Positions 6,082-41,512 of a stretch of 41,512 bases of DNA are shown piece after piece; within the stretch, counting starts at the first letter, position 1, and every line of letters begins with the position of its first letter. The DNA lies in the IMG/VR virus record IMGVR_UViG_3300037153_000256, positions 1 to 41,512 of that record. One strand, given 5' to 3'. The translations under genes and the position numbers were made by a program. Source of the stretch: a virus. The notes beneath the pieces were generated by a model, which saw only the letters and a list, made by a program, of their open reading frames with translations, did not search any database and was not told the origin of the DNA.

Positions 6082-6293
6082 CAGTGCGCCTCCTTGGACG
6101 CCGGCTGGATCACCTCGTTGCCGAGCTCCTGCAGGTGGTCCTTCAGCAGTTGGTTGATCCACATCGCCAGCCGGTGCGCCATCGCCTCGTCGTGGATGTT
6201 GCTGAACTCCACCGTGACGGAATTGTTGCCGTCGCTATCCACCAGGCGCGCGCACTCCACAAGGATCGCACCGAACGCCTTGCGACTGGTCAT
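6081..6293 (-). CDS. Hypothetical protein
   Basis: A 70-residue protein starting MTSRKAFGAILVECARLVDS, with a short beta segment (NSVTVEFSNI) and a C-terminal amphipathic helix. It is ATGA-coupled to the GcrA-like gene before it and to the 5887-6081 gene after it. The function is unknown. Confidence 0.65.
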   Translation of the reverse strand: MTSRKAFGAILVECARLVDSDGNNSVTVEFSNIHDEAMAHRLAMWINQLLKDHLQELGNEVIQPASKEAH

Positions 6294-6727
6294 TGCGAGC
6301 CCCGTGGTTTGGCAAACGCCCTGCCCATGTGGAACGGGCAGTACGGCACGCCGGCCACGCGATCGGCGGCACAGAAATAAAACGCATGCCCGTGCGGGTC
6401 GCCGATCGGCCAGCGGCAGTGGTGGTCGCGCAACTGCAGTAGTTGCAGCCGGCGCGGCTGCGCGCGCAGTGCCGGCAGCGGCGGTGGCGTCGGTATCAAC
6501 ATGCGGCGCCTCACTCGTTGCCGGCGCGGTCGCGGCGGACCAGGCCTGAATTCCGGCCCGCGATGTTTTGCCAGCCCGAGCCGATGCACCTTGCCAAGCA
6601 CACCCGAGCGGGTCACGCCGCCGAGCTCGGCGGCAATCTGCCCGGCCGAAAAACCTTCACCCCACAACTGCCGCAACACCTCGCACCGCTCGCTTGTCCA
6701 CGGCGTGTCGGTGTGCAGATTGGGCAT
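6290..6727 (-). CDS. GcrA-family regulator (phage-encoded)
   Basis: A 145-residue protein. The N-terminal HTH (TPWTSERCEVLRQLWGEGFS, then AGQIAAELGG..RSGVLGKVHRLGL) and the C-terminal Cys/His part (CRWPIGDP..FCA..YCPFHMGRAF) are the two halves of the GcrA cell-cycle-regulator family. In Caulobacter, GcrA binds CcrM-methylated promoters and sigma70. Here it may redirect host cell-cycle transcription or activate phage promoters near GANTC sites. The start is the ATG at 6727; the upstream in-frame extension is the neighbour's shadow. It is the strongest evidence for an alphaproteobacterial host. Confidence 0.85.
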   Translation of the reverse strand: MPNLHTDTPWTSERCEVLRQLWGEGFSAGQIAAELGGVTRSGVLGKVHRLGLAKHRGPEFRPGPPRPRRQRVRRRMLIPTPPPLPALRAQPRRLQLLQLRDHHCRWPIGDPHGHAFYFCAADRVAGVPYCPFHMGRAFAKPRGSQ

Positions 6728-6735
6728 TCGCACCC

Positions 6736-7011
6736 CTACGTCGGTCGGCCGTACTCCAGATCGCGATCCAACCTGATCAGGTCGCGCGCAACCTGCGCTT
6801 CGCTCTTGTTGAAGCCGTGCGCCAGCATGCGAACCGGCACCCGCTGCGACAACGCAATCACATCGCCCGCCAGCACCGCAGCCCGCGACTTGGGCCCGCG
6901 GGTCTTGAACTCGCGCAAGCAGTACAGCAGCATTTCTTCGTAGGGATGCAGTCCCGACTTGGACAGCATCATGGGCGTCTCCAGCGCCGCTACCTCCAGC
7001 AGATGCATCAT
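6736..7011 (-). CDS. Hypothetical early protein
   Basis: A 91-residue protein starting MMHLLEVAALETPMMLSKSG. It contains YEEMLLYCLREF and a C-terminal helix pair (FNKSEAQVARDLIRLDRDLE) that could be an HTH. The ATG at 7011 overlaps the TGA of the Cro-like gene. Second in the early operon, it may be a regulator, but this is inference. Confidence 0.65.
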   Translation of the reverse strand: MMHLLEVAALETPMMLSKSGLHPYEEMLLYCLREFKTRGPKSRAAVLAGDVIALSQRVPVRMLAHGFNKSEAQVARDLIRLDRDLEYGRPT

Positions 7012-7283
7012 TGCCGCCTGCCATTCCTGCGCCGCGCCTTGCGTGCCTTGCGCTTGAGCTTGAGTGGCGCCGCTACCGGCGCGCCGGTGTATTGCCGGAA
7101 CAGCGTCGGCGAAATTTCGCAGCCGGCCTTGCGCAGGCGGGGAGCGAGAATGGCGTACGTCTCGGCCGGGAAGCCGCGACGATACCAGTTGCTGACCGCG
7201 TTGCGCCCGACGCCGCACAACTTGGCGACGGCGACGACACCGCCGAGCGCGGTGATGGCCTCTCTGGTGCTCTGTGTCGGCAT
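7008..7283 (-). CDS. Cro-like HTH regulator, first gene of early operon
   Basis: A 91-residue protein starting MPTQSTREAITALGGVVAVA, with the HTH REAITALGGVVAVAKLCGVG then RNAVSNWYRRGFP, typical of YdaS/Cro-type repressors, and a very basic C-terminus. As first gene of the minus early operon, diverging from another HTH gene, it probably acts as the Cro-like side of the switch. The ATG at 7283 is chosen; a GTG at 7295 is possible, and no strong ribosome-binding site precedes either. The operator dyad at 7297-7336 lies directly upstream. Confidence 0.75.
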   Translation of the reverse strand: MPTQSTREAITALGGVVAVAKLCGVGRNAVSNWYRRGFPAETYAILAPRLRKAGCEISPTLFRQYTGAPVAAPLKLKRKARKARRRNGRRQ

Positions 7284-10862: not shown

Positions 10863-11216
10863 ATGACCGCTCCCATCGAAGTCTGGACCTTGAAGGAAGC
10901 GGCGGCGGCGTTGCGGATGCACGAGCGCACGGTGCGCCAGCATCTGAAGCGCCTCGGCTGGCCCAAGGCGGGCGGTCGTTGGCTGTTCACCAGCGCTGAA
11001 ACCAGCGCGCTTTACGAGGCGATCAAATGCCCTTCGAACTGCAAAAAAGGCCACGCCGCAAGGACTGGTACATCATGGGAACCGAGTTTGGCGAGAACGT
11101 CCGCCGCAGTACGGGAACTGCTGACCGCAAGGAAGCGGAAGCAATCCTCGCCAAGTGCCGCAAGGAAATCTTCGAACGTCATACTTATGGCGCGCAAGCC
11201 ACCGCCAAGTTCATAG
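10863..11216 (+). CDS. xis: Excisionase-like HTH protein overlapping integrase
   Basis: A 117-residue frame starting MTAPIEVWTLKEAAAALRMH. Residues 7-56 (TLKEAAAALRMHERTVRQHL, then KRLGWPKAGGRWLFTSAE) form a MerR/excisionase-type winged HTH. The last 60 residues overlap the integrase in another frame and look unstructured, so the functional part is probably the first 57. Excisionases bend attP DNA and direct excision; the place just upstream of int supports this, but a repressor role cannot be ruled out. Confidence 0.65.
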   Translation: MTAPIEVWTLKEAAAALRMHERTVRQHLKRLGWPKAGGRWLFTSAETSALYEAIKCPSNCKKGHAARTGTSWEPSLARTSAAVRELLTARKRKQSSPSAARKSSNVILMARKPPPSS

Positions 11217-12154
11217 ACGCCGCGCGCAGTTATCTGGAGGCCGGCAAGGGTGGCAAGGATTTGCGCTTTCTGCGGCGGCTGCTCTACAAGGATTACAAGG
11301 CCGAGCAGCCGCAGGAGCTCACCGAGCTTGCGCAGAAGGTGCTGCGCGACATCGATCAGAACTGCCTGGATAAACTGGCGAGGCAATATCCTAACGCCAA
11401 GCCTGCCACGCTGATCGCCAATATCTACACGCCGATCACCGCGGTGATGCGGCATGCCGCCAAGCGCGGGCTCTGCGTGGTCCCGAACTTTGATCGGCCG
11501 CAAGTCGGCGGTGGACGCACGCGCTGGCTGCGGCCGGATGAGGCGGAAAAGTTTGTCGCCGCCTGTAGCGAGCATTTTGCCCCGTTTGCGACCTTTCTGA
11601 TCGGCACCGGCTGTCGGCTGTCGGAGGCACTCTATCTCGACTGGAACGAGGTCGATCTCGACGGCGGCTACGCCATCATCATGGGCCCGACCGACGACGA
11701 TGACGACGACTACCAGACTAAGAATGGCCGAGCGCGCACCATCCCGTTGTCACTGCGCGTATTGGCGGCGCTGCGCAAGCTTCCGCACCGAACCGGGGCG
11801 GTGTTTCGCAAGGCCGATGGCGAGCCTTATGCGCGCTGGGACGCCGAGGGCGTCGGCGGCCGGCACGTGCACAATTCGTTTGTGTGGGCGTGCAAGCGCG
11901 CTGGCCTCAAGCACGTGCATCCGCACATGTGCCGGCACACCTTCGCCACCTGGCACTCACAGATGGGCACCCACCAGTTCAAGCTGATGCTGCTGGGCGG
12001 CTGGTCGTCGGTGTCGATGGTGAAGCGCTACAGCCACATGGACGGCATGGTGTCGCCGGCCGACGCCCGCATCATCGCCGGCTGGGTCGGTGGGCTGGAA
12101 CCGCACCTGGTTGGCACGCAGCGTGCGCCTGCGCTCAAGGTGGTGGGGGAGTGA
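11027..12154 (+). CDS. int: Tyrosine-family site-specific integrase
   Basis: A 375-residue protein. The N-terminal arm-binding part (FELQKRPRRKDWYIMGTEFG) is followed by a SAM-like core-binding region (60-150) and a C-terminal catalytic domain. Catalytic residues seen: R197 (GTGCRLSEALYLDW), K232 (TKNGRART), H300 and R303 (HPHMCRHTFA), W326 (GGWSS) and Y335 (MVKRYSHM). The set is complete, so it should be active. It would integrate the phage at a host attB. Candidate attP lies downstream (12384-12609). Its start overlaps the xis-like frame. Confidence 0.93.
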   Translation: MPFELQKRPRRKDWYIMGTEFGENVRRSTGTADRKEAEAILAKCRKEIFERHTYGAQATAKFIDAARSYLEAGKGGKDLRFLRRLLYKDYKAEQPQELTELAQKVLRDIDQNCLDKLARQYPNAKPATLIANIYTPITAVMRHAAKRGLCVVPNFDRPQVGGGRTRWLRPDEAEKFVAACSEHFAPFATFLIGTGCRLSEALYLDWNEVDLDGGYAIIMGPTDDDDDDYQTKNGRARTIPLSLRVLAALRKLPHRTGAVFRKADGEPYARWDAEGVGGRHVHNSFVWACKRAGLKHVHPHMCRHTFATWHSQMGTHQFKLMLLGGWSSVSMVKRYSHMDGMVSPADARIIAGWVGGLEPHLVGTQRAPALKVVGE

Positions 12155-12383: not shown

Positions 12384-12587
12384 TCGCACCAAATTTGCAC
12401 CACTCGCTGCGGCACTCTCACAAAACCCAATAAAATAGGCACTTCTCGACCTGACCGATGTCCTTGAGCAGAATATCGGCAAAATCAGAAACCCCCGTAA
12501 AACGGGGGTTTTTGTATGTCGGAACGGACCAAAACGGGTCAAAAAGGAAACAAAAAAACACCGCGGTCGCACCAAACGCGCACCACT
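12384..12587. repeat. Candidate attP arm repeats
   Basis: TCGCACCAAA, three variable bases, then GCACCACT occurs at 12384-12404 and again at 12567-12587, 18 of 21 identical. Both copies lie in the gene-free interval downstream of int. The second copy is followed by an inverted repeat, GCACCACT (12580-12587) and AGTGGTGC (12602-12609). Integrase arm and core sites are usually of this kind, but the att core itself cannot be defined without the host sequence. Confidence 0.5.
12490..12513 (+). terminator. Rho-independent terminator after integration block
   Basis: The stem AACCCCCGT/ACGGGGGTT with a 3-nt loop is followed directly by a T-tract (12509-12513). It would end transcripts of the recombination and integration genes and isolate the HNH gene downstream. 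Confidence 0.9.
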
Positions 12588-12638
12588 TTGCGAAAGCGCG
12601 GAGTGGTGCTATTTTGGTGTCCCACGACGAGGGATGTG

Positions 12639-13331
12639 ATGGCGCTCGAACTCCAGAAAAGACCCAAGCGTGATATGTGGTACATCATGGGCACTGAATT
12701 CGGCGAATGCGTTCGCCGCAGCACAGGTACCGCCGACCGCAAACAGGCCGAGGCAATCCTCGCAAAAGTTCTCGCTGAAATCCTCCAGCGCCATCCCGTT
12801 GAAGCACAGGCCATGGCACTCGCAGAGGCAACAGCCCTTGCCGCTGGTGAAATTTGGAAGCCGATCCCCGGCTGGGAAGACTGCTATGAAGTCTCCTCAC
12901 TGCTCCGAGTTCGACGCAAGCGCCATCTGCGGCCACTCAAGCTGATCCGCGACAGCCACGGCTATTTGAAGGTCAACCTTGCCGGAGGCGGCAAACAGGA
13001 GAGCCGACAGATTGGTCACTTCTATCTGTCGGCCTTCGTTGGGCCTCGGCCTGGTGGAATGCGCTGCTGTCACCGCGATGATAACAAGACCAATAACGAT
13101 CCGGCCAATCTCTACTGGGGAACCCAACTGCAAAACATGCAAGATAAGGTTCGCAACGGGAACCAGGCGAGGGGTGAGAAAAGTGGCAAGGCCAAATTAA
13201 CCGAAGCCGCTGTGCGGGAACTCCGCGCGGCTCGGCACGACCAAATCGGTGAAATGGCGACCAAGTTTGGGATCAGCCAGCGAAACGCTCGCGATATACG
13301 GGCGAGAAAAACGTGGAAGCACGTGAAATGA
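12639..13331 (+). CDS. NUMOD4-HNH endonuclease fused to integrase N-terminus
   Basis: A 230-residue protein. Residues 1-58 match the N-terminus of the phage integrase at 43 of 58 positions (ELQKRP, YIMGTEFGE, VRRSTGTADRK, AEAILAK). From about residue 72 come the NUMOD4 motif (GEIWKPIPGWEDCYEVSS), an HNH core (CCHRDDNKTNNDPANLYWGT) and a C-terminal HTH-like part (GKAKLTEAAVRELRAAR). HNH/NUMOD proteins are homing endonucleases. The start is the ATG after GAGGG at 12639. It may be an endonuclease that inserted into a second integrase copy, or a deliberate fusion using an arm-binding domain. It converges on the endolysin gene, with the stop codons abutting. Confidence 0.85.
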   Translation: MALELQKRPKRDMWYIMGTEFGECVRRSTGTADRKQAEAILAKVLAEILQRHPVEAQAMALAEATALAAGEIWKPIPGWEDCYEVSSLLRVRRKRHLRPLKLIRDSHGYLKVNLAGGGKQESRQIGHFYLSAFVGPRPGGMRCCHRDDNKTNNDPANLYWGTQLQNMQDKVRNGNQARGEKSGKAKLTEAAVRELRAARHDQIGEMATKFGISQRNARDIRARKTWKHVK

Positions 13332-21469: not shown

Positions 21470-22951
21470 TCAGATTTGCGATCCGTCGAAGTAGGTCAAA
21501 GACCCGGCATTGAGCGTCCCGCCGCCGGCACCCACGTTGACGGCACCGAGGTAACAGTAGACTTGATAATAGTCGGTGCCGCTGGCGTTATCGATGAAGC
21601 TGATATTCATGCCGAGGACGGTGGTGTTGGTGTAAAACTTGCCTTGCCGGAATATCGCCCCGTTCTTGTAGATGGCGATATAGCTGTCGGCATTGCCGGT
21701 CAGATTGGTGAAATACAGCCCGGCATTGATCAGCACCTTGCCGGCCGGCGGCGTCCACATCCCGTTGCTGGCGGTGCTGAAATTGCTGCCGACATTGAAA
21801 TTTGCGGTATTGAAGACGCATTGCGTATAGGTTGTTGCAGTGAAGCCAACTTGGTTGGCTGACGATACTGCCTGGAAGCATGAGCGCGCGGCCAGCAGGC
21901 TTTTGACAAAGGCGGTGGTGGCAACGCTGGTATCGTTCGATGTCGTGGCCGGCGTCTGGGTTTTGACGTTGCCGCCACTGCCCATCCACATGTTGTACGC
22001 GGCGACCGTACCATTGCCGCCGCCAAGATATAAAATATCCGAGACAGTGTTTATGGACGAAATATAGACTTGTGCGGTCGTAAACCCGTTCGTGTAAAAA
22101 GCATGCTGGCCTGTGCCCTTTGCCGCGAAGAACACATCGACATTCGCGCCAGAGCCGGCGCCGATAATGCGGCCTTGCGTTCCTGCCGCGTCGATCTGCA
22201 AGCCACTGGCACTGCCGGGCGTGACGGTTAGCGACCCCGTCATGGTATCGCCGGCCTTGAGCACCCACGGCGTCGAGGCCGTGCTCACGCCCTGAATGCT
22301 GGTCGCGCCAGTCCACTGTGCCCATTGTCCGTTGCTGGGAGTGCCAACTGCGGTGACATTGCCGCCACCGGCCGGCGCTGCCCAGGTGCCATCCGCGCGC
22401 AGGAAATTGCTGGTGCCGCCACCGCTCGCGGGCACCTCGCCCTTGGCCGAGGTCGAGAAAATAGGTGCGTCGAGCGTGCCCGCCGTGAAGGTGAGGCCGG
22501 TCCCGATGGTCACCGGCGACCAGGTGTCAATGGCCGAGCGATAGTAGATTGTGCTCGTGCCGGTGAGCGCCGCCAGTGCCGTCAAGTCGCCGTCCAACGG
22601 CTGATAGCTGAGCGCCAGATCGACCCAGGCGGCATTCTTGCGGCCATAGGTCTTGCTATCGGTCGGCGCCTCGGGAATGCCGCCACCGCCGCCTGCGGCG
22701 GAGTTGAGCACGCCGCCGGCGAACGTCATGTTGGCGCCCATGGTCACGGGCGACCAGGTGTCGGTGCCACTCCTATAGTAGATCGTGTTGGTGCCGGTGA
22801 GCGCCGCAAGCGCAGTCAGGTCGCCGTCGAGCGGCTGAAACGGGCCGCCGCCGGCGGCCGTGATCCCGAGCGCATTGCGCGCGGCGTAAGGGTTGCTGGC
22901 GCTGTCGAATGCTCGTCTGAACGGCGGGACCGGAACGAGCTCGTCAGCCAT
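21470..22951 (-). CDS. Tail fibre with tandem repeats and C1q-like head
   Basis: A 493-residue protein. Two copies of a roughly 45-residue unit (38-82 and 116-160; QPLDGDLTALAALTGT, YYRS, DTWSPVT, TF) form the shaft, followed by a fibre motif (AGDTMTGSLTVTP) and ATTSNDTSVATTAFVKS. The last 130 residues (GMWTPPAGKVLINAGLYFTN, then SYIAIYKNGA) have the pattern of a C1q/TNF-like jelly-roll head. Such heads often bind receptors. A TAA-ATG junction joins it to the nozzle gene. Confidence 0.8.
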   Translation of the reverse strand: MADELVPVPPFRRAFDSASNPYAARNALGITAAGGGPFQPLDGDLTALAALTGTNTIYYRSGTDTWSPVTMGANMTFAGGVLNSAAGGGGGIPEAPTDSKTYGRKNAAWVDLALSYQPLDGDLTALAALTGTSTIYYRSAIDTWSPVTIGTGLTFTAGTLDAPIFSTSAKGEVPASGGGTSNFLRADGTWAAPAGGGNVTAVGTPSNGQWAQWTGATSIQGVSTASTPWVLKAGDTMTGSLTVTPGSASGLQIDAAGTQGRIIGAGSGANVDVFFAAKGTGQHAFYTNGFTTAQVYISSINTVSDILYLGGGNGTVAAYNMWMGSGGNVKTQTPATTSNDTSVATTAFVKSLLAARSCFQAVSSANQVGFTATTYTQCVFNTANFNVGSNFSTASNGMWTPPAGKVLINAGLYFTNLTGNADSYIAIYKNGAIFRQGKFYTNTTVLGMNISFIDNASGTDYYQVYCYLGAVNVGAGGGTLNAGSLTYFDGSQI

Positions 22952-31001: not shown

Positions 31002-31499
31002 CTATTCGAAGCGGGCGAACTCGCCGTTGAGTTCGCGCGCCGCCCAGCAGTATGCGATGTGTGCTAATTCGGCCGTATCGTGACAACCGAGCCAAATTTT
31101 TTGACCATCTTTCCAGATACATGCGGCCCATCGACCGCTTTTGTCCCGAGACACGCCTTTGTAACCGGAGGTGTTATTTTTGTTCCGCCCTCTATTCGCT
31201 TGGTTTTGACTACCAGTCGCCTCGCGTAAGTTATCGATGCAATTGTTTAGCGGGTTGCCATCGCGGTGATCTATCTGGGCCTTTGGCCATGTCCCATGAA
31301 TATAAAACCATGCCAGCCAGGATGTCTGATATTTCCTACCATCGATGCCGATCATAAGAAATTCACGGTGATCATTGCGTCCTAGGTAGCCGGCCATTGA
31401 TCCTGCGGGCGCTCTGCGGGCAAGTGTTTCTTTCCATGTAAAAATGCCGGTCGTTGGATCGTAATCCAAAACCTGTCGCAACCGTTCCGCTGTGAGCAT
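31002..31499 (-). CDS. HNH homing endonuclease with AP2 domain
   Basis: A 165-residue protein. The first part (LRQVLDYDPTTGIFTWKETL, QIDHRDGNPLNNCIDNLREA, TGSQNQANR) is the HNH motif of phage free-standing endonucleases. The second part (NNTSGYKGVSRDKSGRWAAC, LGCHDTAELAHIAYCWAA) is an AP2-like DNA-binding domain. It starts one base after the TerL stop. Such enzymes spread into sequences lacking them and are frequent beside terminase genes. They may also assist DNA packaging in some phages. Confidence 0.9.
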   Translation of the reverse strand: MLTAERLRQVLDYDPTTGIFTWKETLARRAPAGSMAGYLGRNDHREFLMIGIDGRKYQTSWLAWFYIHGTWPKAQIDHRDGNPLNNCIDNLREATGSQNQANRGRNKNNTSGYKGVSRDKSGRWAACIWKDGQKIWLGCHDTAELAHIAYCWAARELNGEFARFE

Positions 31500-41246: not shown

Positions 41247-41512
41247 GCTCATCTGCAGCCAGGGCAAGGATTACGCCAAGCTGCTAGAGGATGCTGCCAA
41301 GCAAGTGGACAGTGACTTCGACGCCGGGCTGCTACGTGGCCTGGCCGATGTGATGCGCGAGCTTCCTGCTGCGCTTGACGGCGACCGAGCCGAGATCGAG
41401 CGGCTGCGGGCATTTATCTCGCGCCTCGACGCCCTGAACGACAACCCCGCCTGCTTCAACTCCAATATTGATGCTGCAATCCGAGAGTTCCGCGCCCTGG
41501 AGGAGAAGGCAT
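41230..41512 (+). CDS. Small accessory protein, 3' partial (continues at 2-301)
   Basis: Starts MPNSIELICSQGKDYAKLLE and runs off the window. Residues 1-49 are unique here, and the rest equals the terminal repeat. With the right-end sequence it would stop after LEEKA, at a TGA formed with the next base. With the left-end sequence it continues into the longer form ending at 301. Its ATG overlaps the preceding gene by 17 bases. Confidence 0.65.
   Translation, partial: MPNSIELICSQGKDYAKLLEDAAKQVDSDFDAGLLRGLADVMRELPAALDGDRAEIERLRAFISRLDALNDNPACFNSNIDAAIREFRALEEKA
41379..41504. repeat. Terminal repeat, right copy (matches 1-126)
   Basis: This is the exact counterpart of bases 1-126. The last eight bases of the window, just after it, do not continue like the left copy. 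They match the junction that would form if 165 bases between positions 121 and 286 were deleted, so the contig may end on a strain variant. Confidence 0.9.

Follow-up and report, generated by a model that had tools for sequence, protein, structure and literature searches.

A putative homing endonuclease carrying an integrase arm-binding domain is encoded beside the presumed attP of a phage genome

Results

A gene of a 41,512-bp virus record (IMGVR_UViG_3300037153_000256, positions 1 to 41,512; the window, in what follows, is this whole stretch) appears to encode a homing endonuclease with a swapped DNA-binding domain, in which the arm-binding domain of an integrase precedes a NUMOD4-HNH nuclease. 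It is the sole example that we found. The fusion gene, its likely source and a host-indicative gene are located as follows:

6290-7024: GcrA homologue (E 2e-34)
11027..12154, + strand: tyrosine integrase gene int (375 aa; Phage_integrase E 3e-25), of the family from which the domain was captured
12627..12632, + strand: ACGAGG ribosome-binding site, common to int (11014-11019)
12639..13331, + strand: fusion gene, 230 aa, with integrase arm-binding domain, NUMOD4, HNH_3 and C-terminal HTH-like part
12639..12812, + strand: fusion codons 1-58, homologous to the same codons of int (43/58 residues identical)
12849..12980, + strand: NUMOD4 motif, residues 71-114 (E 8e-9, above the Pfam cut-off)
13032..13142, + strand: HNH_3 nuclease motif containing H145, N157 and N166, residues 132-168 (E 3e-8, above the Pfam cut-off)
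13197..13328, + strand: C-terminal segment common to NUMOD4-HNH relatives by alignment, putatively HTH-like

Because the first 135 bases recur at the record end (1-135 and 41378-41512 overlap with 99.3% identity), the genome is very likely complete, circular-mapping and of ~41.4 kb. The GcrA homologue, the ERF and YqaJ recombination genes that lie immediately 5' of int and the kinship of the integrase, whose close relatives are found in Alphaproteobacteria and alphaproteobacterial phages, point to an alphaproteobacterial host. The gene order is an HTH/xis-like gene, int, a 68-codon ORF, the presumed attP, the fusion and an endolysin gene on the opposite strand that abuts the fusion stop codon. 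The HTH/xis-like ORF (10863-11216) shares the first 190 bases of int, read in a different frame, and a comparable xis-like/int overlap occurs in another locus (L071:4304-4696). Elsewhere, the ORF at 21470-22951 contains a ~100-bp internal repeat (22503-22604 and 22737-22838, 81%) with the motif QPLDGDLTALAALTGTxTIYYRS.

Evidence for an in-frame fusion

Comparison of the fusion protein with its own record by tblastn gave a second match at 11027-11209, in int (72%, E 5e-23), and at the DNA level the two genes aligned over 188 columns at 68.6% (12627-12813 versus 11014-11201, E 1e-23), with a homology that begins at the ACGAGG ribosome-binding site and stops near codon 58. An HMM of the integrase N-termini of relatives, built without the window's own integrase, found the fusion ORF at E 9e-15. 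The original prediction that 43 of the first 58 residues equal the integrase N-terminus was borne out by tblastn, alignment and DNA homology, and NUMOD4-HNH does follow, with both motifs above Pfam cut-offs. The ORF coordinates given there, 12639-13331, were correct too: an in-frame ATG also lies upstream at 12516, but the ribosome-binding site precedes the ATG at 12639, which lines up with the start of the integrase. Pfam searches found neither the PF00589 catalytic recombinase domain nor a core-binding domain in the fusion, which distinguishes it from the tyrosine integrases of alphaproteobacterial temperate phages (e.g. phiAX1), whose N-terminal domain is homologous to fusion residues 1-58. 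The fusion itself matched no Pfam arm-domain model, and Arm-DNA-bind_5 was found weakly in 7 of the 32 aligned members. A sigma-70 consensus scan showed no promoter near the fusion, the consensus saying little for this host group. In-frame fusion with an arm-binding domain of true integrase origin is supported.

The gene comes from one metagenomic record with no independent copy, as an assembly artefact would. It is not, however, a misassembled duplicate of int, because it differs from int at ~31% of bases, its frame is open and its synonymous sites are saturated; the contig ends also overlap as in a complete circle. We consider an artefact extremely improbable.

Distribution of the domain and of the fusion

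The N-domain could have been an unrelated common domain, a case that the original prediction had singled out as fatal to it. We rejected this case because elsewhere, in the collections searched, the domain was found only at integrase N-termini. When the fusion sequence and family consensus were used as queries, phage and plasmid matches to the N-domain were integrases wherever annotated; fusion residues 1-58 matched the N-terminal domain of the Acetobacter phage phiAX1 integrase at 46%, and a Caballeronia plasmid gave a single weak, unannotated match. Three phage matches, unannotated or called 'DNA-binding protein', proved on reading through to be ordinary integrases. In phiAX1 (locus L007, 2941-4101), a single 387-codon frame corresponds to the full integrase, which the deposited record annotates as two pieces.

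Among related loci, 80 with an integrase gene and 80 with an HNH gene, no second integrase-N/HNH fusion was present, and single-sequence scans of IMG/VR with the whole fusion protein and with its N-domain gave no matches. Two Synechococcus phage matches (H3 and H4) that covered 91% of the fusion protein were discarded, being devoid of the integrase-like N-domain. Searches of open-access literature, in which absence is not proof, agreed with the earlier statement that no described case of such a fusion is known, and the search for fusions elsewhere that it called for leaves this gene as the sole example among the collections searched.

The nuclease part and other homing-type genes

In profile comparisons, the nuclease portion of the protein could be aligned with I-HmuI (1u3e; E 5e-28) and matched PHROG 59 (E 4e-38). 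Residues H145, N157 and N166, invariant in the alignment of nuclease relatives, are presumably active-site positions, given the I-HmuI residues that we take to be catalytic; the HNH nuclease appears intact, with these positions preserved. NUMOD4, HNH_3 and the C-terminal DNA-binding part are shared with the I-HmuI-type NUMOD4-HNH homing endonucleases (1u3e; PF07463 + PF13392; PHROG 59/1492), from which the fusion differs by its extra N-terminal integrase arm-binding domain and by being an apparently free-standing gene beside the presumed attP. Because the nuclease relatives in IMG/VR usually begin at NUMOD4, the integrase domain is an addition to the nuclease. An empty-site search in structural relatives found no integrase region matching that of the window.

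Other homing-type genes of the window are:

1380-1868, - strand: T5orf172/MUG113 (GIY-YIG-like) ORF, 162 aa, third homing-type nuclease candidate
31002-31499, - strand: HNH_3 + AP2 gene, between the terminase gene and the next gene

The HNH-AP2 gene is absent from a close relative, where the terminase stop is directly followed by the next gene (L016:2600-2800), that is, an empty site. The terminase 3' end beside the HNH gene is unusually divergent, which is what co-conversion during homing would produce. HNH-AP2 homing endonucleases resemble the fusion in combining an HNH nuclease with a three-stranded-sheet DNA-binding domain; AP2 is, however, a C-terminal and general domain of homing endonuclease genes, whereas the fusion carries its domain at the N-terminus, and this domain derives specifically from an integrase.

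In another phage (L029:5046-5747), a NUMOD4-HNH gene overlaps the stop codon of a related integrase gene and, at the presumed att site, is followed by a sequence that resembles the 3' end of a tRNA. Its product carries a different N-terminal extension of ~75 aa that matches no Pfam family. HNH genes do reach the int-att interval, because this gene sits there, without an integrase domain.

Predicted structure of the N-domain

A model of the N-domain built with 32 aligned sequences predicted strand-strand-strand-helix for residues 1-70 (beta-beta-beta-alpha over 1-51), with pLDDT ~90 for residues 1-50. The single-protein AlphaFold model of the full-length fusion was poor, and alignments combining N-domain and HNH fragments were misaligned and left out of the results. 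The top two viral predicted-structure matches to the N-domain model were phage integrases (probability 1.00, rmsd ~1 A), and no solved structure (PDB) matched it significantly, AP2 tandem repeats being among the weak matches. The N-domain is predicted to be an arm-binding domain of beta-beta-beta-alpha fold. Because strands 14-20 and 23-28 carry a single difference between fusion and integrase, N24C, the two proteins are expected to have the same DNA preference. The model also matched a 192-aa phage protein named MUG113, a nuclease family (BFVD A0A6J7WXW5; probability 1.00, rmsd 3.9 A), which is possibly an analogous domain-nuclease fusion.

Doubled motifs around the presumed attP

The DNA upstream of the fusion gene holds these features:

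12386..12404, + strand: doubled motif 1, GCACCAAATTTGCACCACT, putative arm site
12405..12568, no strand: presumed attP core interval, placed by the flanking motifs
12569..12587, + strand: doubled motif 2, GCACCAAACGCGCACCACT, putative arm site
12602..12620, - strand: doubled motif 3, ACACCAAAATAGCACCACT, putative arm site

Three copies of [GA]CACCAAANNNGCACCACT occur within 12386-12620 (at 12386+, 12569+ and 12620-) and no other exact copies in the window; each is a tandem pair of GCACCA half-sites, 11 bp apart. Motifs 1 and 2 point the same way and bracket a 164-bp stretch with a terminator-like hairpin (12486-12514) inside it, while motif 3 is inverted, forms an inverted repeat with motif 2 and ends 18 bp 5' of the fusion start codon. 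None of 30 shuffles yielded three similar copies. Neither a crossover site within the presumed attP nor the host attB was located. By flanking it, the three motifs support the earlier proposal that the integrase-like copy sits just beyond an attP candidate. In another integrase clade, a tandem-doubled motif lies on both sides of the attP centre and binding by the arm domain has been suggested (PMC10111431). The doubled GCACCA motifs of the window are probably integrase arm sites.

A repeat scan downstream of the integrases of relatives revealed no doubled motif of comparable strength, perhaps a consequence of the many contigs with only half an att site. Two matches to the arm motif in a scan of the collection were dismissed as coincidences, one being a tandem repeat (L189) and the other lying inside a methyltransferase-like gene (L193); the remaining matches had no related integrase in the DNA examined.

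The location of motifs 2 and 3 directly upstream of the fusion start, and an arm domain that is intact by its conserved columns and predicted fold, would also suit a protein acting mainly as a competitor or modulator at the att arms, in control of integration and excision or in autoregulation, with nuclease activity secondary or absent. Such a regulator would have no need of NUMOD4 and HNH motifs above cut-offs or of the catalytic positions that have been kept, and we find this explanation unlikely.

History and constraint of the captured domain

Phylogenetic analysis joined the fusion and integrase copies as a sister pair (UFBoot 100) that arises from a long shared stem; their terminal branches measure 0.27 for the fusion and 0.23 for the window integrase. 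Residues E4, Q6, M17, E20, F21, H52 and Q57 are common to both copies and absent or nearly absent in 71 relatives. Because synonymous sites are saturated between the copies (pS 0.78) against a pN of 0.18, most of their divergence occurred under strong protein-level constraint. We then counted conserved columns, defined as those kept in at least 60% of relatives. Up to residue 52, one such column is lost from the fusion alone and two from the integrase alone; farther on, beginning with residue 53, five are lost from the fusion alone (G55, F62, A65, Y69 and L70) and none from the integrase. The homology itself (R51, H52, A56-Q57-A58) extends beyond the end of constraint. Since conserved columns are kept to residue 52 and lost after it, the arm-binding domain looks maintained, and the former integrase linker looks as if it no longer matters. 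A serious caveat is that the constraint may be partly older than the fusion if the donor was the integrase of a sister phage.

These results bear on the main rival to a steering function, namely passive capture: a partial int, consisting of the ribosome-binding site and codons 1-58 and derived from the same or a sister phage, would have been joined to an HNH gene by illegitimate recombination, the N-terminal part serving only as translation start and leader while the nuclease works through NUMOD4, HNH and HTH like its relatives. That the homology begins at the ribosome-binding site is expected if expression signals were captured, and both the usual lack of such an N-domain in nuclease relatives and the failure to find a second fusion agree with it. 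On the other hand, the copy stops near the domain boundary, integrase-conserved residues have been kept despite a divergence that saturates synonymous sites, and the fusion branch is not longer than the integrase branch predicts. We regard passive capture as a realistic possibility, clearly short of even; the sequence evidence favours maintenance of the domain, without proof.

One of the two origins first suggested for the gene was truncation of a second integrase gene by an endonuclease. A gene interrupted by an HNH gene, with its 3' part subsequently deleted, would explain an N-terminal part that starts with the same layout as int, ribosome-binding site included. Nevertheless, apart from int itself, the apparently complete genome showed no second copy or remnant of integrase residues 59-375, whether behind the nuclease or at any other place, and the relatives, thought of as possible carriers of an intact or interrupted second integrase, include no HNH-interrupted integrase in 80 integrase loci. 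Truncation is thus unsupported and very improbable, although deletion may have removed a remnant.

Discussion

The other of the two initial suggestions, that the fusion steers cutting to integrase arm sites, is plausible because the DNA-facing part of the domain is nearly unchanged, arm-like sites adjoin the gene and the nuclease Odn offers a precedent. The likeliest explanation overall, to which we give roughly an even chance, is a chimeric homing endonuclease that a captured integrase domain directs to the attP arms. A NUMOD4-HNH homing endonuclease would have captured the arm-binding domain of the lineage's integrase together with the ribosome-binding site, the reading frame being kept. The resulting protein would be bipartite: the N-domain would tether the nuclease to the doubled GCACCA sites of att arms, and NUMOD4/HNH/HTH would pick the cut. 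It would act on att regions in phages, prophages or satellites, where the HNH module would nick or cut nearby DNA in attP, attL or attR of elements that have the same arms and lack the gene. In repairing the broken molecule, the cell would then copy into it the fusion gene together with the att DNA linked to that gene, a step that the neighbouring ERF and YqaJ genes, by family, could serve; alternatively, the cut might merely cripple a competitor. A nuclease aimed at the arms of its own phage would need self-protection, and we speculate that the position of the gene directly behind motif 3 could protect its carrier by separating arm and cut site. Bound at motifs 2 and 3, the fusion may also restrain its own expression.

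The closest parallel to such a protein is Odn of ICP1, which cleaves the origin of the satellite and has a DNA-binding domain very similar to the one in the origin-binding proteins of satellites (PMC8263062); further domain swapping has been described among homing nucleases (PMC10448857). In both Odn and the fusion, a homing-type nuclease domain is joined to a domain like that of a site-binding protein of a mobile element. They differ in that the fusion has HNH and an integrase arm domain instead of the T5orf172 and RepA_N initiator domains of Odn, its predicted target is the att arms rather than a replication origin, and the donor of its domain is the phage's own integrase lineage. Cutting by Odn has been reported, and that by the fusion is predicted.

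Should the arm domain steer cutting, it would follow that homing endonucleases are able to retool through the DNA-binding module of a neighbouring integrase, and the principle of Odn would extend from replication origins to attachment sites. Such retooling would also provide a simple, testable cause for the divergence of temperate-phage integrases and att arms. We tentatively suggest that the captured domain might let the nuclease attack, or gain entry to, att sites in other temperate phages, in prophages and in satellites that rely on the same integrase arms; attachment-site specificity would then be something over which elements are in conflict.
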